From NCBI RefSeq assembly GCF_020921035.1, contig NC_063158.1, forward strand, positions 3,888,001 to 3,952,000: a stretch of DNA of 64,000 nt. Direction: 5' to 3'. This document shows, piece after piece, positions 6,028-32,600 of the stretch. The translations under genes and the position numbers were made by a program. The notes under the pieces are model-generated. The model was not told the origin of the DNA, searched no databases, and saw only the letters and a program-made list of their open reading frames with translations. This DNA is from Rhodamnia argentea (lineage: Eukaryota; Streptophyta; Magnoliopsida; Myrtales; Myrtaceae). Numbering within the stretch: the first letter of the stretch is position 1; every line of letters begins with the position of its first letter.

Positions 6028-6679
6028 TGCCTGGTCAGTCCATGCTATGATTTCTTGATGATGTTCAGTTGACTTCTCTCTCCACAGGTATTCAGTCATC
6101 GTCGACTTTCTTTCTGAATTACATAGCACATAGTTCACTTTTGGAATAGTCAATTCATGTGGACAGTACAATGATGATGTAATTGCTAATGAGCCAGTTA
6201 GCTTGAGTTAGCAATTGCCTATTTTGTCCAATAACATGGCATATCCTCTCTCATGCCCTCTGTGGTTACATGACGCCTTCGGGTAATAATCCATCGTGAA
6301 ATCCTTGTCCTGCTGGAGTTGAGGTCTGAATTGGCAATTTTCGTGTAAAAAAAGGTAGAAAGTGAATGGGCAACTAAGTACCTTATAAATACATTAGGTG
6401 CATATTGGCACCTCAGTTTCCCATGCCTTACCCTCCTTTCAGCTGAATTTGCAAAATTGGGAACAGTGTTGTCACCTTAGGGCGTCTGTGTTATTCTAAA
6501 ATTCAGAAAATCACGTTTGCTACTCTTGCTAGCTGTTTAAAAAACATGTATGCAATTGTAGGCCAACTTTATTTTCCTCATTTTGGGATAACACTGCAGG
6601 CAAGTCTCCACGGACAACTGAAATTGGAGTTTTGCTGTTGCCGGTTGAACATCACATGGCCACGCTGTGTCTCCCTTTG

Positions 6680-6763
6680 GGATCCATTGGGTTAGTCAGT
6701 TTGGAACAATGTCAGGCTTTGAAGTTAAGCGGCTGCGTTATGGGCTAGAGTGCCACTGGATCG
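6680..6763 (+). pseudogene. 5S rRNA-like relic
   Basis: GGATCCATTGG, then GAAGTTAAGCG, then GGGCTAGAGTGCCACTGGAT occur in the same order and near-native spacing as the middle and 3' parts of plant 5S rRNA (GGATCCCATC, GAAGTTAAGCG, GGGCGAGAGTAGTACTAGGAT). The GAAGTTAAGCG block, part of the internal Pol III promoter, is intact. The flanks do not match the 5S ends, and there is a short insertion after the block. It looks like a decayed dispersed 5S copy or a 5S-derived SINE head, not a working gene. Confidence 0.45.
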
Positions 6764-7922
6764 AGCAAAATTTAGTGCCATTACTTAATTTTATAATTGA
6801 ATGATCTTGGGTGTTGATTCTTATTTTCCCCTGAATTTTGGATGAAAAAATTCAGGTAGTGTATTTCTCGGATATAAGCAACATGTCTTTCAGCGGGACA
6901 GGTACAGAGCATTATCACTCCTCAACTAACAAAGTCAGTTGCTTCTTGAGAGAACATTTCGGCCAGTACTCCTGGCATCTTCTACGCCAGCATTAGAATC
7001 CATTCTACTGCAAGTTTCTTTAGTTCCAGTCTAGAATCTTCAGGACCCCACCTCTCCCTAACGGGCACCGAGTGAAAACCGGGCTCATCCTCAGTCAATT
7101 TGACTTGTCCATGAGCCCGGAATGCTTCCTAACCGGTATCGCTCCCAGTGCATTTATCCACATACAGAAAACGAACGTCTTCCTGATGGCATTTAACTGA
7201 TGTTTGGCATATATCTTTGATGTGATATCCCTATCTAGGACCCATCTGTTGAGCCAAACTTTTCAGCTGAGAGAAGTTTTGGCACGCCTATCCTAGCAAT
7301 TAAGTCATCCTGCGCCAAACTAGAAAAGAAGGAAATGAAGGAGCATGTAACTCTAGCTGTTCATAGTTAACTGCAATTGACGCTTGCTCGGGCGTTTTGC
7401 TTAAAGTTCGATCCCCTTGCTGGCGATTCCTTTGATTGACCTCTCGAGTCACAAAATTTTGTTACTTTGTAACTATGCGAGTGTAATTACTTTAAGCGGT
7501 TGAGATTGGACGCCGTGGGGACTAGTTAATAGTTAATTGGTATCGACTGTACCCATCGATATCAAACGAAAATTTGCAATTCATAGAATTTCTTACACTT
7601 GATTTGAGCGGAAAAGAATAAATGCTAAAGTAAAAGACAAAGCAAAAGTAGAAAGCAAAGAAGCTTATAAAGAGGGGGGGCAGCAATGATGGTGCCGCGA
7701 GTATGGGCTCACACTTTATTGCTGGTTTCATAGGGCTAGAGGACCGAGCTGGACCGAGCTGGACATGAACTTGACTAGACTAGATTTACATATTTCATGC
7801 TAGAAACTTGATTTGAATTCAATCGGCTCAAGCTCAATTTGAATAGAAAATCCAGATATATGTACTCAACTTGACTTGATTCGATTAGAAGTAAGCATTG
7901 AAGGAGCTTGATTTTGAACTTA

Positions 7923-8136: not shown

Positions 8137-8400
8137 TTAATAAGTTGGAATATTTTCTGAGGTTATACTCTCTCTTTTTTCGAATTCTGAGTTTATAGTT
8201 GTGTGAGTCCTTTATATGGGAAACTATTACATATTCTTCAGAAAACAATCGGATAATCATCGACTCATTATTTTTTTCACTAAATTATTCCCCAGAACTA
8301 TATGAACAAAATTCGCTCTGCTCTGGGTAGCCCATCATATATTCTTACGACCCTTGACATTCAGAGTGCCACTCCTCCCCATCTCTCGCCCCAGACAAAA

Positions 8401-9039
8401 ATGGCGAAACCAAAACCATCTCTCTCCTTCTTCTTCCTCCTCTTCCTCTTACTCTCCCTCACCACCACCCCATCACAATCCTTCGTCCACAGCCACCCCA
8501 AACCAGCTCCCACCAGCTTCATTGTCTCCTCCTGCCGCGCCACCCGCTATCCGGCCCTCTGCGTCCACTGCCTCGCCGCCTATGGCCGTGCCATCCAACG
8601 GAGCGACCACCACCTCGCCCAGGCCGCCCTCATCGTCAGCCTCGCCCGGGCCCGCTCCGCCGCCTCCTTCGTAGCCAAGCTGTCCCGAGCTCGCCGCATC
8701 AAGCTCCGCGAGCTCCGGGCCGTGAGGGACTGCATTGAGAACATGGGCGACTCCGTGGACCGTCTCGCCGATTCGGTGAGGGAGCTCGGGCGCTCGGGTC
8801 GGGTCGCGGGCCAGGATTTCGCGTGGCACATGAGCAACGTGGAGACATGGGCGAGCGCCGCACTGACGGACGAGAACACCTGCATGGATGGGTTCGGGGG
8901 TCGGGTCATGGACGGGGACCTGAAGGTGGTGGTGAGGCGGAGGGTAGCGAATGTTGCTCAGGTGACGAGCAACGCCCTGGCTCTCGTGAACCGGTTCGCT
9001 TCCAGGCATGGGACGGTCACGGCAGCGGGAGATCCTTGA
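8401..9039 (+). CDS. Pectin methylesterase / invertase inhibitor (PMEI) domain protein
   Basis: A single-exon gene of 212 codons. I chose the ATG at 8401 over the in-frame ATG at 8302 because it begins directly with a classical signal peptide: Lys, then a long Phe/Leu run at about residues 9-20, with cleavage probably near residue 26. The mature part has the PMEI pattern: CRATRYPALCVHC supplies the first disulfide pair, a four-helix bundle follows, and later Cys residues lie in RDCIENM and ENTCMDGF. Family members are secreted and bind pectin methylesterase or acid invertase in the cell wall; which one this protein inhibits cannot be told from sequence. It has no catalytic domain, so it is a stand-alone inhibitor. 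The coding region is very GC-rich compared with its surroundings. A short 3' region with a poly-A/AAG tract follows. Confidence 0.9.
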   Translation: MAKPKPSLSFFFLLFLLLSLTTTPSQSFVHSHPKPAPTSFIVSSCRATRYPALCVHCLAAYGRAIQRSDHHLAQAALIVSLARARSAASFVAKLSRARRIKLRELRAVRDCIENMGDSVDRLADSVRELGRSGRVAGQDFAWHMSNVETWASAALTDENTCMDGFGGRVMDGDLKVVVRRRVANVAQVTSNALALVNRFASRHGTVTAAGDP

Positions 9040-14710: not shown

Positions 14711-15752
14711 GTCCAATATTAAATGGCGTCGTTGCACTTTCACTTATGTAACGTGAGCATTATGTCGGCAGTATTTGCATTCTGTCTTTCACATTAGCCG
14801 CCACATAGAAGTTTTAACAGTGCTCGATGCTTGTCGACCATACCTCGACGGGGGGTGAACATGTTACACGAAAATAATTTTAGGATTTTGGTGATTCAAA
14901 AATGAGTCTGGGGCATTGGTCTCACAATGGATATAGTTTGAGACTTTTTTGTGACTTTTTTCCTTTATTTTTGGAATTGGCTAGGTGCCTAATTGTCGGC
15001 GAATACCAAACGTGTCTTTGAGTTTGATTTTCATTGTTGAGGGGGTCTTACTTAATACACTATACAATCATAATTCTTTTGTGATATTGGGCCCCTTCGT
15101 ATGCACCCGATCTCCGTCAGCCCAGCCTACTTATGATAAAAGAAATTGATTTGTTGTTACAAACCCGGCCCCTAAGCGGGCCGGACCTAAGAAGCAAATA
15201 TAATGGGCCGAGTACTTTAGAAGTCCCAAACAGGCCAACCGTAGGCCGAAAAGATAGAGACTAGCAAGTGGCAGAAGCTAATTTGAAAAAATATATATAT
15301 TTTTGGGAAAATGCCAAAAAAGGGCCCCAAGTGTACTTGTTTTCTCGATTAAGGGCCTGAAGTGCAACTTGTGTCAAAAAAGGGCCTCAAGTACCATTTT
15401 TTATTCAAACGAGGGCCCGAACGGGGACATTTTTGTCTTTTTACATTTAGTGATTATTTTCCTTTTTTTTCTTCTGTTTTTTTCCTTTTCTTGCAAAAAA
15501 ACCAGGACGTTATTAGTCCCGCAAGGCTGATGATTAGTCTGGATTAGGAAACGAATTAACGATAAAAAAATCTGTGGTCATCCGATAATCACCCTCCCCA
15601 TTTTCAGCATTTCTCCCATGAAAATTAATCAACATAGAAAAGAAACAAAGATTAGAAACCGATTTTGTTGGAACTTGGTTGATTACCCAGCGCTTTGTTT
15701 TCGGGTCTCGTCTCGTCAAATTTGAATAGACTTCAAAAAATCAAGAACATTG

Positions 15753-15959
15753 AAGGATATGGGAGATGAAGGCGGGGATGGCGGAGGCGAAGGCGGAGGT
15801 GGAGGAGGCAGCGGCGATGTGTCGTCGCCGACCAACAAGGTCAAGTTTTTTTGCGGCCACGGCGGGAAGATTCTGCCGAGACCCGGCGACGGACATCTCA
15901 AGTACATGGGCGGCGAGACCCGCGTCATCTCCATCTCTCGCGACGCTACCTTCTCCGGT
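15753..15959 (+). pseudogene. Captured first exon of a PB1-domain gene
   Basis: The frame begins [20 protein letters not shown] and runs into a PB1 start: [20 protein letters not shown], then [21 protein letters not shown]. The basic Lys and the GGETR motif are those of plant PB1 proteins. A good splice donor follows (TCTCCG|GTGCC), but intron-like sequence runs directly into the GC-rich triplication and no second exon exists. The PB1 fold therefore lacks its second half. Upstream (15500-15750) there is leader-like sequence, probably captured with it. It lies wholly inside the Pack-MULE. Codons are intact up to the donor, so the capture looks young. The parent gene is not in this window. Confidence 0.75.
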
Positions 15960-16084
15960 GCCTTTTTCGCTTTTCTCCGTGACAATTTAACGTTGGATTT
16001 GTTCATGTCAATGGAACTCTGAGCATGTTTCTTTGTTTTGTCGGAGCAGATTTAAAGAAGAAGCCGATTACTACCCGGATCGAT

Positions 16085-16460
16085 GCGACCTTGCACCCGT
16101 CTGCAGCCGGCGACGAGAGATCCGCGGGCTGAACGGCCGAGATCGCGGGTGGCGAGGACGCGGGGCGGAGAGACCGAGGCGCGGGTCCTCGTGTCACTCA
16201 TCGCCGCTGAAGCGACCTTGCACTCGTCTCCGGTCGGCGAGGAGAGATCCGCGGGCTGAGCGGCCGAGATCACGGGCGGCGAGGACGCGGGGCGGAGAGA
16301 TCGAGGCGGGGGTCCTCGCGTCGCTCATCGCGCTAGAAGCGATCTTGCACCCATCTGCGGCCGGCAACGAGAGAGCCGCGGGCCGAGCGGCCGAGATCGC
16401 GGGCGGCGAGGACGCGGGGCGGAGAGGCCGAGGCGGGGGTCCTCGCGCCTGTTTGCGGCT
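16085..16460. repeat. Three tandem 127-bp GC-rich repeats inside the Pack-MULE
   Basis: Units start at 16085, 16212 and 16339, each with GCGA(C/T)CTTGCACCCGTCTG-like heads followed by 'GAGATCCGCGGGC', 'GGCCGAGATCGCGGG', 'GCGAGGACGCGGGGCGGAG' and 'GGGTCCTCG'. The spacing is exactly 127 bp twice. The long open frame 16033-16584 is a by-product of the GC content and repeats, not a gene. The units resemble the GC-rich filler seen in other long-TIR elements here. Confidence 0.8.
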
Positions 16461-17159
16461 CTCCTACTGGCGGTGCAAAGGGAAGAAGAAAGAAGAAAAG
16501 GAAAAAAACAGAAGAAAAAAAAGGAAAATAATCACAAAATGTAAAAAGACAAAAATGTCCCCGTTCGTGCCCTCGTTTGAATAAAAAATGGCACTTGAGG
16601 CCCTTCTTTGACACAAGTTGCACTTCAGGCCCTTAATTGAGAAAACACGTACACTTGGGGCCTTTTTTTGGCATTTTCCCTATATTTTTTAAAATATAAA
16701 TGCTTGTATCACTTAAAATAATTAATTAATAAAAAATTATATTATCAATAACAATTTATGTTTAAATATTTTCGTGGGTGATGAAAATATTTTTTGTTGA
16801 GCCATTTTTGTATAAACATAGTTTTGTTTGGCAAGCATACAATTTAATGGATGGTTTTAAGTTAAAAAGCCACTTCAATGTGGTCACTTCTCACTACGGA
16901 AGAGATTGATTAATTGGTTGAGTTACAAAATATGTAGTGAATGTAACAAATTACCAATTATGTCGTTGGAACTGTCAGACAATCTTTTATTCAGAACTTA
17001 AGAAAGCTTCAGCACTTGATGGTCTCTATTTAACAATTTTCAGCACTTATTTTATCGGACTGTGCCCCAAGTTAGGAAAGTATAGAAATTCATCTGGCCA
17101 CCCAAAACAAGCCGTGTATTAGTCGTTTTATTGTATTGCTCGAAGGGAGAGGGGTTTAT

Positions 17160-18984: not shown

Positions 18985-20370
18985 AAAAAAGAAAATTTTC
19001 AAATAAATGTCTCAAGTACCATTGTTTTCTCAAATAAGGATCTGTAGTGGACTTTGTTTCAAAGAAGGGCATGTAGTGTCCTCTTTATTTCAAAGAAGAG
19101 CCTAATCAAGCATATTTTTGTCATTTTCTTTTTATGGGTTTTTTCAATTTTTCTTTCTTTCTTTCCTTTTTTTTTTTCTTTTATTCTGTTTCTTTTTTTG
19201 ATCTTCGTCTTCTTCTTCTTTTGCAGTTGGCGCACTTGCAAGTGGAGCTGCAGAGAATGAACGCAGAGAACCAGAGGCTGGCCGGCCACAGGCGAGGGCC
19301 TCGCCCAGGCGTGGACAGGGCAGCCCAGGCAGGACCGCCCTCGGATCCCGCTCGAACGGAGACGCGGGTCTTCCTCATCGAATGAATGCAGAGAGCTAGA
19401 GGTTGGGAGAGATGCTTGGCCAAGTCACAAGCAACTACAGTTCATTGGAGCTGCACCTCTCTTCACTGCTCCAGCAGCAACAACAGCACCAGAACAATGG
19501 AGTTGAGCTCACGCAAGATCGCGAGGTAAGTTTAGTTTCTTGGAGTGTTAATGGTATATGTAAAAGGAGAAGATTGTCGTGGAAAAGAAAGTGTTCTTGG
19601 ATCAGAATCGTTCTGACGCCATGTGTTCGAAAAATTGCAGGGCATGATCTAGAAGAACCGAACGGTGGTCCCGAGGCAGTTTCTTGAACTCGGCTTGGCA
19701 TCGGCCGCGGCCGAGCTCGCCGAGATCTCAAACTCTTCGTCGGAAGAGAGAACGAGGGACGGTTCCAGGTCCCCATTGCACGTCATGGAAATCGCATCGT
19801 CGGCCACTCACAACAGTAAAGTGGACAAAGACAACTCCAGCGCCGGAGATGGTGGCTAGAGAAGCGTTGGGAGCAATAACCCCCGATGACTCTTAAACCT
19901 TGGGCTCCCAGCAAGGCGCCCAAGTTGGATGCTGCCGCGAGGACAAGCATCGATCAGTCCACGGACACCACGATGAGGAAGGCCCGCGACTCTGTTCGAG
20001 GGCAAACTGAGGACGGCCCTCGCCGGGGCTGCCGTCTCCACTCCCGGGCGAGGCCGTCGCCGGTGGTCGGCTAGCCCCTGGTTCTCCGCGTTCATTCTGT
20101 GCAGCTCCACTTGCAGGGGCGCCAACTGCAAAAGAAGAATAAGATGAAGATCCAAACAAGAAACAGAACAAAATAAAATAAAAGGAAAGAGAGAAAGAAA
20201 AAAAAAGGAAAAAAAATCATAAAAAGAAAATGACAAAAATATCCTTGAGTAGCTCCTTCTTTAAAATAAAAAGGCCACTTGAGATCATTCTTTGAAACAA
20301 AGCCCATTTTAGATTTTTATTTAAGAAATTGGTGTTGTTTAAAGTCCTTATTTGATTTTTTTATTATAAA
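18985..20370. mobile_element. Long-TIR element carrying a WRKY gene fragment (Pack-MULE-like)
   Basis: The outer ~230 bp of each side are inverted relatives: 'aaataagga(t)ct...ggactttgtttcaaagaa' on the left against the reverse of 'ttctttgaaacaaagccc...' on the right, plus 'atatttttgtcattttctttttat' on both. They share layout with the TIRs of the Pack-MULE at 15305. The inversion extends inward through a short WRKY-derived segment present at 19227-19280 and, reversed, at ~20085-20136. Ends are approximate: candidate target duplications (ATTTAAAAA and ATTATAAAA) are low-complexity. The interior holds WRKY-derived exons and GC-rich filler, with no transposase. Confidence 0.6.
19384..20010 (+). 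pseudogene. Captured group IIb WRKY gene fragment lacking the WRKY domain
   Basis: Exon-like 19384-19525 encodes a leucine-zipper region: MNAES*RL, then GEMLGQVTSNYSSLELHLSS and a Gln run, ending NGVELTQDRE. GTAAG follows and an intron runs to TTGCAG at 19640. The next exon reads GMI*KNRTVVPRQFLELGLA, AAELAEISNSSSEER, SHNSK-like and later SIDQSTDTTMRKARDSVRGQ. This is the order of a group IIb WRKY factor up to the residues just before WRKYGQK, which is absent. At least four in-frame stops or breaks show it is not functional as a protein. Keeping the intron shows capture at the DNA level. A second copy of the zipper start (LQVELQRMNAENQRL) lies at 19239-19283 and an inverted one at ~20085-20130. 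Confidence 0.75.
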
Positions 20371-20982: not shown

Positions 20983-23900
20983 ATGATGGCGGCGGAGTCG
21001 GTGAGGTTGGCCGGTCCGTCCACGGTGTGCAGCTTCAGCGGCTCCCAGAGGAGGCCCGCGGCGCTTCTCTCTCCCGCTCCCTTCCTAGGCCTTCGTCGTC
21101 GCGCTTCCTCCCTCTCTTCGTCCGGCTCGCAGTTCCTCGCCGGAATGCGCTTGGGCTCCGGATGCTCGAGGCCTCCGGGCTCGCAGCGTCGGGGGCGGAG
21201 GGACTGCTCTGTTTTCGCCATGGCCGACGGAGGTACGTGCCGAATCGTGGTTTCGGCGATTAATTTGAGGTAGTATTTGTTTGTGCGAGTGTAATTGTGT
21301 CGTTTGACTGGCGAGGCGAGGCGAGGCTAGGTGAGAGCTCTGCTTGCGGTAGTTTTTCCTCCGCCAGGTGACTGACGAAATGCCTGGCAATGACCTTCCT
21401 CTGCGTGTTTCGGCATAATTCTTCCTCCCCGCCGACTAGTCGCGGGTTGACTGGTTTGGAGGCAAGGCATTGTCACTTGTGAGGGACAATCCGAGTGTTC
21501 TCTCTTTCTGAGAAAATTGTTTCTTTTGTCGCATTTTGTGATAAGTTAAGACGCCTAAAATATGATTCGGTGGTGAATTTTCTGTCAGGACTGACCTCCA
21601 TACAATTATACCTTGTTGACGTGTTGTTTCTTCACTGAATATTTGCTATAGTTGTAATTTTGTTGATGCTTGTCTTGAGTGTACATTGGGATCTGCTCAT
21701 TGCCTTGCTTTGTAATGGTGAAATGAGTGATCAGAGCCGTTTTAGTCACCTATGATAGGAATTCTAAGCCTATTCTAGTTTGACGCTTGTTCAGCCACCA
21801 ATGACATACTTTTCTCTTGATTCTTGCCAGATGGAAAGCGTGCGGTACCCTTGAAGGACTACCGGAATATTGGAATTATGGCTCACATAGATGCGGGGAA
21901 AACTACTACAACTGAACGGATTCTATACTACACAGGAAGGAACTATAAAATTGGAGAGGTGCACGAGGGTACAGCTACAATGGATTGGATGGAACAAGAG
22001 CAGGAAAGGGGGATTACCATCACGTCTGCCGCAACCACCACATTTTGGAACAAACACAGGATTAACATCATTGATACTCCTGGCCATGTGGACTTCACCC
22101 TTGAAGTGGAGCGAGCACTCAGGGTCTTGGATGGCGCCATTTGCTTGTTTGACAGTGTGGCTGGAGTGGAGCCACAGTCCGAAACTGTGTGGAGGCAAGC
22201 TGATAAATATGGGGTACCTAGAATTTGCTTCATCAATAAAATGGACCGCCTTGGGGCTAACTTCTTTCGGACAAGGGACATGATAGTCACAAACTTGGGT
22301 GCTAAACCCCTTGTGATTCAGTTGCCAATTGGTTCAGAAGATAATTTCCAAGGGGTTGTTGATCTTGTTGAGATGAAGGCTATAATATGGTCTGGAGAAG
22401 AGCTGGGTGCAAAGTTTGTATATGATGATGTTCCGGCTGATCTGCAAGAGATGGCTCAAGATTACCGATCACAGATGATTGAAATGATAGTTGAGTTAGA
22501 TGATAAAGCCATGGAGAACTACCTTGAAGGTGTCGAACCGGATGAGGAAACAATTAAGAAATTAATTAGGAAAGGAACTATATCGAGCAATTTTGTCCCT
22601 GTATTATGCGGTTCAGCCTTTAAAAATAAGGGGGTTCAGCCATTGCTTGATGCTGTTGTGGATTATTTGCCTTCACCTCTTGAGCTGCCACCAATGAAGG
22701 GTTCTGATCCTGAGAACCCAGAAGCAACGATTGATAGGCCCCCCAGTGATGAGGAGCCTTTTGCTGGACTAGCCTTTAAAATCATGAGTGATCCCTTCGT
22801 GGGGTCCCTCACTTTTGTGAGAGTGTATGCAGGGAAGTTAACTGCAGGGTCATATGCACTGAATGCGAACAAAGGAAAGAAGGAGAGGATTGGTAGACTT
22901 CTTGAAATGCATGCCAACAGTAGGGAAGATGTAAAAGTTGCATTGGCCGGTGATATTGTTGCTCTTGCTGGTCTAAAGGATACGATAACTGGTGAAACGC
23001 TTTGTGACCCCGATGCTCCCATACTTCTTGAGAGGATGGACTTTCCTGATCCTGTTATTAAGGTTGCTATTGAGCCTAAAACTAAAGCTGATGTAGACAA
23101 GATGGCGAATGGTCTGATCAAACTTGCTCAAGAAGATCCCTCTTTCCATTTCTCGCGTGATGAAGAGATCAACCAGACAGTGATTGAAGGAATGGGAGAA
23201 TTGCATCTTGAGATTATTGTTGATCGGCTCAAGCGGGAATTTAAGGTATGTAACTTACTCAAGGTGTTAACACAAAACTGATTCCGAAAGATGCTTTTTA
23301 CAATTCTAAATTTTCAAGATCGTTTCAAAAACCACTCGTAACTTTCAGTGTTCTGGCATCCATCTCCTGCGTGCTGATAATTCACATGCCTTTCTTATTT
23401 CTTTTGTTGATCCACTTTTCCACTACGGCAGGTTCTTCGGAAGTGCCACAACAAATTTCATTTAGTATTTGAAGATCCCTATTTGTCATTTGTCCCTGCC
23501 GTTTTGTAACTTGGCTTTTCCAGGTTGAAGCTAATGTTGGGGCACCGCAAGTGAACTACAGGGAAAGCATTTCGAAGGTCTCTGAAGTAAAGTATGTGCA
23601 CAAGAAACAGTCAGGTGGGCAAGGGCAATTTGCGGATATCACCGTGCGATTTGAGCCCTTGGAGCCGGGAAGTGGTTATGAGTTCAAGAGTGAGATCAAA
23701 GGAGGGGCAGTTCCTAAAGAGTATATACCTGGAGTAATGAAAGGCTTGGAAGAGTGTATGAGCAATGGAATTCTTGCAGGGTTTCCTGTTGTCGATGTGC
23801 GTGCTGCATTAGTTGATGGTTCATACCATGATGTGGATTCAAGTGTCTTGGCATTCCAGCTGGCTGCCAGAGGAGCATTCCGGGAGGGAATGAGGAAAGC

Positions 23901-28000: not shown

Positions 28001-29400
28001 AATTATGATAATAAAGAGCTCAATTACTCTCCAAGTTTGCTCCAATAAATCAAAATCTCATAATTTGAAATCCCACATGTATAAAACATATGGTAATTTT
28101 GGCCAATTAAGGGTTTATTCCAATTTCGCTTTATGGGATTAGTCCAATTAATCTAATTAAGCTCAAAACCTCCGCTACTTGAGCCCGTCAATTCTGGTCC
28201 AATAAAAATGCAATTATATTGGCCTAATTAAAATGCTCGTTATATCTATATGTTATTTAACTAATTTTCTTCTTTATGGGTCGGGATCCATCCCTAATTT
28301 TTCCATGCAATAAATGTCTAAATGTGTTGTCAAAATTTAGGTGTCAACATTTATAACATATATATATATATATATATATATATAGCATCTTTTTCTTTTA
28401 AGAACCTAAATTCGTAGAAAGTGTCTTAATAAAGAGGAGCACTTAGCTAATCATTTGAATAACGAAATATTTTCTGTCACTAATGCACTAATTACACATG
28501 ACAAGGATAAATAATGCATTGAAAATGACAATTTTTTTTATGAGATGTTTAACGAGTATCATTCATGTGAGAACCGTTGAATTCAATTGTTACACTATGT
28601 TCCATCGCTGGGTTTTCCTTCTTTAGATGTTTAGGTTTTTGACAAAATTACTAGCTTTCACTTTAGAATATAAAATTTGGGGTCGAGCCGATTTTGCAAA
28701 AGCTTAACATCCAAGCTCCATTAAAAACTGGTCAAGTGAAGTTAAAACATTTTATTTCATGAATGTGATAACAAGAAAATGCAGTTTCGAATATTGCACA
28801 AAGTTCTCATAGGGAATCATTCACATATCTAGATTCGGACAATATTTTCTGATATTTTGCTAAAACTTGAAAATGAACTGGGAAATAATTTTCGCCGTTC
28901 CAGTATGAAGTATCAGATTTAATTCTCTTCCATGCACTCCTCTTAATAACTTTGATTTTCTATTATGTCTATTAAATTTTAAATTTTTATTTTTTACCTT
29001 TCTCCTTTTTCCTCCTCCTCGTCGGAGGAAGAAGGAGAAAGGAAAAAAAAAAAAGAAAGGAAAAGAAAAAGAAAAATAAAAAATAAAAAAAATAAATTTC
29101 GAACTTTTTTCAAAATAATTTTTTTGAATTATTTAAAACTATTAAAAAAAAGGAAATAAAAAATAAAGGAATGTGAACGAGTGGAGGAAGGAAAGATGAG
29201 GTTAAATATTTTAACTTATTCAAAAGAAAAAAAATATTTTTCTACTTTTGAAGGTTTTTTTTTTTTTTTTGTGAGAAGAACAATTTTTTATTAAAATGAA
29301 CGTCGAAAAATTCGGAATAGTGCCACTCTGTCGTTTTTAATTTTTCTGGAGTACACAGAACTCGGCTGACTCGTACCCAAACGGAACCAGGACAAGCCGA
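25040..29400. other. AT-rich intergenic region with simple repeats
   Basis: It starts with the 3' UTR of cpEF-G (poly-T at 25262, gene end probably before 25350). It then holds AT-rich DNA with a degenerate 112-bp duplication (26229-26450), an (AT)n microsatellite at about 28357-28384, and purine or pyrimidine tracts near 29000-29100. A mixed-composition patch at 27460-27900 translates on the minus strand to MRKYLRANVRWRKLNLSELW and more, but I cannot place it in a family. No gene can be supported. Confidence 0.45.
26229..26450. repeat. Degenerate 112-bp tandem duplication
   Basis: CAGATATTCATGCATACATG at 26229 recurs as CGGATATTCATTGATACATG at 26341, each followed by GACTTGATTA and a 'TAAAT(C/T)TAACACCCTTT' or 'TTATCTGACGCCTTTT' tail. 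This is two old copies in direct orientation, non-coding. Confidence 0.45.
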
Positions 29401-29687
29401 ATCTCGTGGCCAAACAGACCGAAATTCCAGCGTCACTACGCCGTTTCGCACGAGTCAATGGAAGCGAAGGACGCACGGAGAACATTCCAGAACCACACTC
29501 CTCTCCCTCTCTCTCTCTCTCCTCATCGCCAGAACTCTCTCGTCTCCTCCTTTTCCCATCTTGTTCAATTATTATAAACCCTAGCACGTCTTTCCACTTT
29601 ACTGTCCTCCATAAATCACACTCCCCCCGATCTCGAATCCTGCTCTCTACCCTTCGCGAATCGGCGCCTCGCGAGTCCCAATCTCCC

Positions 29688-32600
29688 ATGGCCGACGAAG
29701 CCAAAGCCAAGGGCAACGCCGCCTTCTCCTCCGGCGACTACCACTCCGCCGTCCGCCACTTCTCCGACGCCATCGCCATCGCCTCCACCAACCACGTCCT
29801 CTACTCCAACCGATCCGCCGCCCACGCCTCCCTCCACAACTACTCCGACGCCCTCGCCGACGCTGAGAAGACCGTCGAGCTCAAGCCGGACTGGTCCAAG
29901 GGCTATAGCCGCCTCGGTGCGGCTTACCAGGGGTTGGGCCGGTATGACGACGCCATCTCCGCCTACAAGAGGGGCCTCGAGATCGATCCTAGCAACGAGG
30001 CTCTCAAGTCCGGCTTGGCCGACGCGCAGGCCGCCGCGGGGTCGTCCAGGAGCCGTGCTGCTCCGCCGCCGAGCAATCCGTTCGGGGATGTTTTCCAGGG
30101 GCAGGAGATGTGGGCAAAGCTGATGGCCGATCCGACGACCAGAAGTTTCCTGCAGCAACCGGACTTTGTGAGGATGATGCAGGATTTGCAGAAGAATCCT
30201 AGCAGTCTGAATCTGTACTTGAAGGATCAGAGGGTGATGCAGGCGCTTGGAGTGCTGTTGAACGTTAAATTGCACACTCCGGGTCAGGATGCGGGCTTTG
30301 AGGCTGCGACGGAGGCTGAATCGCCGCCAGCGAATAAGCCAGACAAAAAGCCAGCCAAGGAACCGGAGCCGGTGCCAGAGTCAGAGCCAGGGCCGATGGA
30401 TATAAGTGAGGAGGAGCGAGAAGTAAAGGAGATGAAGGCTCAGGCTCAGAAGGAGAAGGAGGCCGGTAATGCAGCTTATAAGAAGAAGGATTTCGAGACT
30501 GCAATTCAGCACTACACCAAGGCTATCGAGCTTGATGATGAGGATATTTCTTTTCTCACGAACAGAGCTGCTGTGTATTTGGAGATGGGAAGGGTAAGAA
30601 CTTCGTCCTATATGGTGATTATATAGTTTATTTTTATTCGTTCTGGTGCTTGTTGTGATGTGAGCACGTATTTGGTTGAGTGCTTGTTTGTTGATTCTTA
30701 TGAAGGCAAAAGTTTTGCCGGCTGAGCACCAAGGCAATGGTGTAGTTCGAGAATGTGCCTGCTAATGAGTACAAGGAAACTTTATATCTTGCTGGCGGTG
30801 GTCCTTAAACAAATTTCATTTGAAGTACAAACGTTGCTCATGATTTTGTTCTGGCCTTAGGCCCTGCTTAATTGATTGGTTTAGAGACATAGGTAGTATG
30901 GATCTAGGATGTGGGCTATTGGGTAGACCGGTTATGTCTTTTATCTGACAGTAATATTACTCTAGAAAGGACATTACCATTTCCAGGAGGAAAATTTAAT
31001 TTTGTTCCTGTTGGCAATGCTTGAGTGGAACAAAGAACTGTTTAAGTAGTAAGTACTCGATGCGTGGTGGAACGGAAATAATAACAGAAGATGTTGGCCT
31101 GCCTGATGGAAGTTGGAAATTGGAACAATGAACCATGAATTACCAAATGCTTTGCTATGGCTTTGCTATGGTACTTTTTAATCAGCTTTTTTAATTGTCT
31201 GCCTGGCCTCTTTTAGATGGTTTCAGTTGATGGTCATGCTTGGAAATCAAGTAGAGTTGATGTCAGTATCCTGTTCTGTATCTGAGCAGCGGTGTCATGT
31301 CTTTAAACTGTGTCCAGCCTCTGTGGTTTTGTTTCTTGGAAGACAAATGGATGGTGCTTTTCTCATTCTTAATAAAAACCAATGACAGCCCACTGATGTG
31401 AAACCTGATAATTCTGGCTGCATGGCATTGAGGCCTAGCCTTAATTCTATGCATGTCCGGCAATATGTTTGGGCGTGTTCATTTGTGTTTAGGAGCATAC
31501 TGAAGAGTGGCAAATGCTGTTTGACGTTCTAGTCCTGTACTTCACTGTGATTGGTATGAGCTTTCTTTTGTCCTAGCCTTCTTCTTTGTACCAGCAAGCG
31601 TGGCAGCATTGGGTTCTGGTGTGGTTAATATAGGAAAGCAGATGTCCATTCTGAGAGGTGACATTTCTAGAGGAGTTCTCGATAACTGTGTCTCAATCTT
31701 GGTGTTGAAAGTTTTGCACTGAGATAACAAGAATCTGAAGGCCAGAGCAATTCCTAATGATGTTCTTTTTGCTGAAGGAAAAAGAAGCATTTGTCGTTCT
31801 TCACATGTCCATCGATACTCGTGGGGCAGCCCAGTATTGTAACTTGCATGGCGTATTGATGGATGTTTTTGGTTTTAAGATTGTGTTGCTATTCCTGCTT
31901 AATTTTTGATAATCTTCTTCAATCGGAGATTCTGAGCTATTGAATTGGTCCTAAGTAGTGTGTGGCCCTGCAATAACCTTTGACATTGAACTATAATCAT
32001 TTTGCCCTTCAGTTGTATGTGTTCCTTTTTCGGCAGTTGTATTTCTTGCAACTAGATATTTTTATCTGGCTTCTCTTTTCTCATATTTTGACACTGTTTC
32101 CAGTATGAGGATTGCATCAAAGATTGTGATAAGGCTGTTGAAAGGGGAAGAGAACTCAGATCAGACTACAAGATGGTAGCTAGAGCCTTGACAAGGAAGG
32201 GAACTGCACTTGTAAAGATGGCGAAATGCTCAAAGGACTATGAGCCTGCTATTGAGACCTTCCAAAAGGCTCTTACAGAGCATCGTAACCCAGACACATT
32301 GAAGAAACTAAACGAGGCTGAGAAAGCAAAGAAGGAACTGGAACAGCAGGAATACTTCGATCCTAAATTGGCTGATGAGGAGCGTGAGAAAGGTTCTGTA
32401 TTTTGATTTACCTATATGCATGTCTGATGTTCATTCGTAGTCTCTCTCTGCTATTTTATTTGCTTGATGAGTGCTGAAGCACTGCCTACATTTGTGGACA
32501 GGAAATGAATGTTTCAAAGAGCAGAAATATCCTGAGGCTGTGAAGCATTACTCGGAATCATTGAGAAGGAACCCTGAAGATGCGAGGGTAAGGATATTTG

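Follow-up and report, generated by a model that had tools for sequence, protein, structure and literature searches.

The DNA analysed here, referred to as the window, is a stretch of 64,000 nucleotides at C9:3888001-3952000 of the 346.7-Mb genome of Rhodamnia argentea. Three open reading frames of host genes are recognised in it by Pfam, and between the first two, those of a PMEI inhibitor and elongation factor G, sits a Pack-MULE candidate that spans 15305-16680 (1376 bp). The features, in window positions, are as follows.

8284-9039: host gene, open reading frame of a PMEI inhibitor (Pfam)
15296-15304, no strand: left target site duplication (TSD), TATATTTTT, 9/9 identical to 16681-16689
15305-15492, plus strand: left terminal inverted repeat (TIR), 188 bp, starting GGGAAAATGCC
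15493-15540, no strand: spacer of 48 bp, found in all four carriers of the PB1 piece and absent from the other matches listed
15541-15758, plus strand: captured 5' leader of a PB1 gene, 218 bp, 13/218 bases unlike the donor
15759-15957, plus strand: captured exon 1, 199 bp, from ATG to splice donor, 8/174 aligned bases unlike the donor
15958-16049, plus strand: captured intron 1, 92 bp, GT and AG retained, with GT at 15958-15959
16050-16087, plus strand: captured start of exon 2, 38 bp; likeness to the donor stops at 16087
16082-16462, no strand: tandem array, three copies of a 127-bp GC-rich unit, 73% GC
16493-16680, minus strand: right TIR, 188 bp
16681-16689, no strand: right TSD, TATATTTTT
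21821-23281: host gene, open reading frame of elongation factor G (Pfam)
29370-30626: host gene, open reading frame of a TPR protein with an STI1/HOP domain (Pfam)

An initial annotation of this DNA had described TIRs of about 190 bp, highly alike, and an identical 9-mer on both flanks, and our measurements agree: each TIR is 188 bp, both start with GGGAAAATGCCAA, the arms (15294-15492 and 16493-16691, a few flanking bases included) are 94% complementary over 199 nt, and TATATTTTT stands exactly on both sides. The 127-bp GC-rich triplication that it had also reported was located in the array, where the three copies are 100, 87 and 84% identical to the first, and the GCG at 16085-16087, common to donor and repeat, forms the junction between exon 2 and the repeat. 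The exon, placed earlier at 15753-15959, is present and followed by its splice donor GT, but its true bounds are 15759-15957; similarly, the cargo does contain a clean first exon from ATG to donor site, but the leader, intron 1 and 38 bp of exon 2 were captured with it. The element consists of its TIRs, the gene fragment, the repeat and short spacers, with no transposase seen inside; judged by length, a single stop-to-stop reading frame of at least 130 aa is present, one of 197 aa across the repeat.

Another MULE-like element, in a more decayed state, lies 2.3 kb from the Pack-MULE, at 18990-20364 of the window. Its arms are 71-75% like the Pack-MULE TIR, its flanks agree at 8/9 at best, and its interior (19382-19998) is 78% like C3:4446864-4447454, a place about 400 bp from a reading frame that matches WRKY at 23.2 bits (cut-off 21). 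It has the appearance of an old Pack-MULE that carries part of a WRKY gene.

The parent PB1 gene that had been expected elsewhere in the genome was found at C5:22495713-22496235, on the minus strand, with 89.4% identity over 548 alignment columns to the leader-exon part. This place is without these TIRs, and it is the sole other TIR-less leader-exon match among the matches listed. From stop to stop, with the intron read through, its frame is 383 aa long and fits PF00564 (PB1) as do the genes of PB1-domain plant proteins, with 37.7 bits against a cut-off of 23.6, and the match covers profile positions 26-83, mostly beyond the captured part. The capture runs from 218 bp before the ATG through exon 1 (199 bp) and intron 1 (92 bp) to 38 bp into exon 2. 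With gaps left out, the window copy differs from the donor at 13/218 positions in the leader, 8/174 in exon 1 and 7/93 in the intron; 25 bases of its exon 1 are unpartnered in the alignment.

Those 25 bases fall in a glycine-rich tract that is shorter by that amount in the assembled donor (about C5:22495975-22496017; gaps of 14 and 11 columns; donor exon 1 at L009 5845-6018, minus strand). The donor's first ATG is consequently out of frame with its own PB1 exon, while all four mobile copies are in frame; spliced from that ATG, the donor yields an unrelated 59-aa peptide, and in the PB1 frame of its exon 1 no ATG follows the stop TGA. Since the donor frame is otherwise open, we consider an assembly error in the G-rich repeat the most likely cause of the frameshift; alternatively, the donor may start elsewhere or the loss may be genuine. 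Judging by the transposed copies, the exon seems to have been in frame at the time of capture. That they preserve an in-frame start exon which the donor itself has lost seems to us quite improbable.

As TATATTTTT is AT-rich and would be weak evidence alone, the flanks of relatives were inspected in a sample of 36 stretches, comprising part of the window and 35 genomic loci. Complete elements with both TIRs were present in 28 of the 36, and 25 of these 28 are flanked by an identical target duplication of at least 9 bp. The exceptions are L023 and L056, with 8/9, and L060, with 8 bp and a one-base shift. The comparison tolerated shifts of up to 3 bases, and a shift of one base was reported for four of the 25 (L022, L055, L061 and L063), two of which (L055 and L063) also repeat 9 bp unshifted by eye. 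L019 and L020 have identical flanks and thus represent one insertion that was duplicated later. In L025, one pairing with a second, partial TIR match was left out (its flanks agree at 2/8). The remaining eight stretches contain one TIR (L017, L028, L062 and L064), none (L049-L051) or a fragment (L052). Genome-wide, the TIR-end pattern with at most two mismatches was found at 295 forward and 293 reverse places, and the pattern read backwards at 0 and 0. Mismatch-free ends account for 54 of the 100 listed places among these 588, and the total takes in at least one related group, because many one-mismatch places carry GGGAAAATTTC.

Several members are enlarged. The interval C1:7944571-7956234 (11.7 kb, with one TIR in L017 and one in L064) owes its size to other internal sequence, which may, judging from an open reading frame, be a Ty3-like retrotransposon, and L011 (5.3 kb) is likewise enlarged by other sequence inside. 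In L060 (4468 bp), no stop-to-stop frame longer than 158 aa was found, judging by length. No transposase with this TIR was found when 150 matches to the MULE domain (PF10551) were checked visually against 100 listed TIR ends out of the 588, and the TIR was present in none of 10 transposase loci opened with 1.5-kb flanks. A single pair lay within 10 kb, the transposase at C1:34133085 and an element at C1:34138614, and this candidate partner was rejected, other repeats surrounding the transposase. These are inverted AT-rich arrays with a period of 126-127 bp (L073 1897-2852 and about 6030-7890), and they match neither the 127-bp unit nor the TIR of the window element.

The 127-bp unit has a wider distribution than the PB1 piece. 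GC content is 73% in its array, against 40% for the window, and the CpG observed/expected ratio of the array is 1.31. Across the genome, at least 94 places match the unit, with 76-100% likeness (40 of 42 candidates scored), and many of them are inside this element family; at the places opened, no single-copy source stood out among them. The unit is also found in elements with other ends (L049-L052), which start with GAGAAAATATT and are about 1.1 kb long; an automated comparison detected a perfect flanking repeat in one of these four (L050, 10 bp), and a 9-bp flanking repeat is visible by eye in L051. MULE-like elements of two terminal types therefore contain one and the same GC-rich sequence. 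The triplication had been counted as part of the cargo; it is indeed fused to the PB1 piece, but the array also occurs in many PB1-less sister elements.

Searching the genome at the protein level produced 22 matches, of which five exceed 90 bits, namely four elements (C9:3903759 in the window, C6:31426862, C6:1016554 and C5:3008321) and the C5 donor; the next scores 61.7 bits. Among the 28 complete elements, 4 carry the PB1 piece, 20 have the repeat but no PB1 exon, and in 4 both are absent (L059, L060, L061 and L063); PB1 matches of 41-42 bases in L023, L026 and L053 overlap partial repeat matches and were not counted as captured exon. The PB1 carriers have three (window), five (L010), four (L011) and one (L012) repeat matches, two of those in L011 being halves of one unit split by a 3.9-kb insertion. 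All four have in common the 48-bp spacer, the junction of spacer and leader and the junction of exon 2 and repeat, and their TSDs differ; the shared junctions point to a single capture and later spread. Carriers differ from one another at 7-11/199 positions of exon 1 and from the donor at 8-11/174, so that little time may have passed between capture and spread. By the same token, exon 1 sequence alone cannot group the carriers apart from the donor, and it is the junctions that argue for one capture.

Exon 1 is open in all four copies, with ATG, splice donor and splice acceptor intact, and the spliced reading frames are 93 aa in the window copy and 329, 93 and 93 aa in the others. In the carrier with the longest of these (L010 1007-2641), the ATG frame continues through the 127-bp repeats, giving 329 aa spliced or 360 aa unspliced, although the unit length is not divisible by three. 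The initial annotation had proposed that the element could make a truncated PB1 peptide, and a peptide of 93 aa does exist on paper, one that might interfere with PB1 proteins. However, unlike PB1-domain genes, the mobile piece reaches only positions 5-30 of the 84 in the PB1 profile (14 bits, E=0.052), under the cut-off of 23.6, and could probably not adopt the PB1 fold. Nor does the substitution pattern depart from neutrality. Relative to their own majority sequence, the four copies have 13 nonsynonymous and 6 synonymous changes in exon 1, and a neutral expectation built from the mutation spectrum seen in the leader and intron of these copies is about 12.3 and 6.7, with 65% of 19 changes altering the protein. 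Under neutrality, the probability of 13 or fewer nonsynonymous changes is 0.71, as is that of no stop, and the change rate per site and copy is 0.024 in the exon and 0.022 in noncoding sequence. Purifying selection on exon 1 is thus not apparent across the four copies, in a weak test of 19 changes that are not all independent (sites 15856 and 15940 are each changed in two copies). By this measure the exon looks neutral in its carriers, a functional truncated PB1 peptide is unsupported, and we regard such an interfering product as very improbable.

The element might act instead as a source of small RNAs, with a read-through RNA folding on the 188-bp TIRs and being diced, and the cargo part silencing or methylating the donor. 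The TIR arms pair almost fully in the predicted RNA fold of the whole element, leader and exon agree with the donor at about 94-95% of positions with gaps left out, and, according to a review (PMC13317346), Pack-MULEs and other capture elements are siRNA reservoirs in maize and can silence the donor gene. However, the stem of the predicted hairpin is the TIR and not the cargo, and the CpG ratio of the array does not suggest long, heavy methylation. Small RNAs acting on the donor are possible on the basis of the predicted fold, and we hold this account of the element to be unlikely. It is harder still to maintain that the PB1 stretch at 15759-15957 belongs to a genuine host gene as its first exon and that the inverted repeats are incidental. 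The clean ATG and splice sites would suit such a gene, but likeness to the donor stops in the repeat array, after which come TIR and TSD, and the PB1-carrying unit recurs at three other sites, each with another TSD. Continuation of the exon into real downstream exons at this locus had been named earlier as speaking against a Pack-MULE; the exon instead runs into the repeat and then the TIR. We give this explanation almost no credence.

We conclude, with a probability of about 0.93, that the window element is a non-autonomous Pack-MULE that descends from one capture from a PB1 gene, spread to at least four sites by mobilisation in trans and carries its cargo passively, as drifting sequence. An element made of 188-bp TIRs and the 127-bp GC-rich tandem repeat would have come first, and would then have acquired, once, a contiguous genomic piece of the PB1 gene comprising leader, exon 1, intron 1 and the start of exon 2. 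A transposase presumably supplied in trans would later have placed copies of the chimera at four or more sites, with 9-bp target duplications made at each, and the cargo would since have drifted, probably with no function.

MULE target site duplications are about 9 bp long (8-11), and the window element has a 9/9 TSD and long TIRs common to its relatives. Its Pack-MULE features are a host gene fragment with a donor elsewhere and no transposase seen inside. The Pack-MULEs of rice are reportedly the subject of Jiang et al. 2004. According to PMC8903248, more than 3000 Pack-MULEs are annotated in rice, and the window element resembles those of rice and other plants as portrayed there in its long TIRs, target duplication, lack of a visible internal transposase, GC-rich cargo, and host gene fragment that includes an intron and has its donor elsewhere. 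Selective capture of GC-rich sequence by MULEs has been described in Oryza (PMC4858842), and captured fragments are mostly non-functional, yet numerous ones are expressed (PMC13317346). The window element differs from the Pack-MULEs of rice and other plants in the fusion of its PB1 piece to a tandem repeat of 127 bp, which it shares with PB1-less sisters and with elements whose ends are different. In other superfamilies, Pack-TYPE elements are also non-autonomous TIR elements with a gene fragment, but in the same source (PMC8903248) their TSDs are 5 nt (CACTA) and 8 nt (hAT), in contrast to the 9 bp found here. A literature search combining the terms Pack-MULE and Myrtaceae found no publication.

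The suggestion of an intact-looking Pack-MULE with PB1 cargo is thus borne out by TIRs, TSD, relatives and a donor elsewhere, and the window element is real, well preserved and ordinary, a known kind of mobile element. It provides a complete case of gene-fragment capture, with one donor, one capture, four carriers and many relatives without the cargo, and it also shows MULE-like elements that differ in their ends but have one GC-rich repeat in common. Furthermore, since the exon has changed at the noncoding rate, intact exon boundaries are no evidence of function. If the donor were truly broken, these Pack-MULEs would archive the old exon and could return it by gene conversion or chimeric transcripts.
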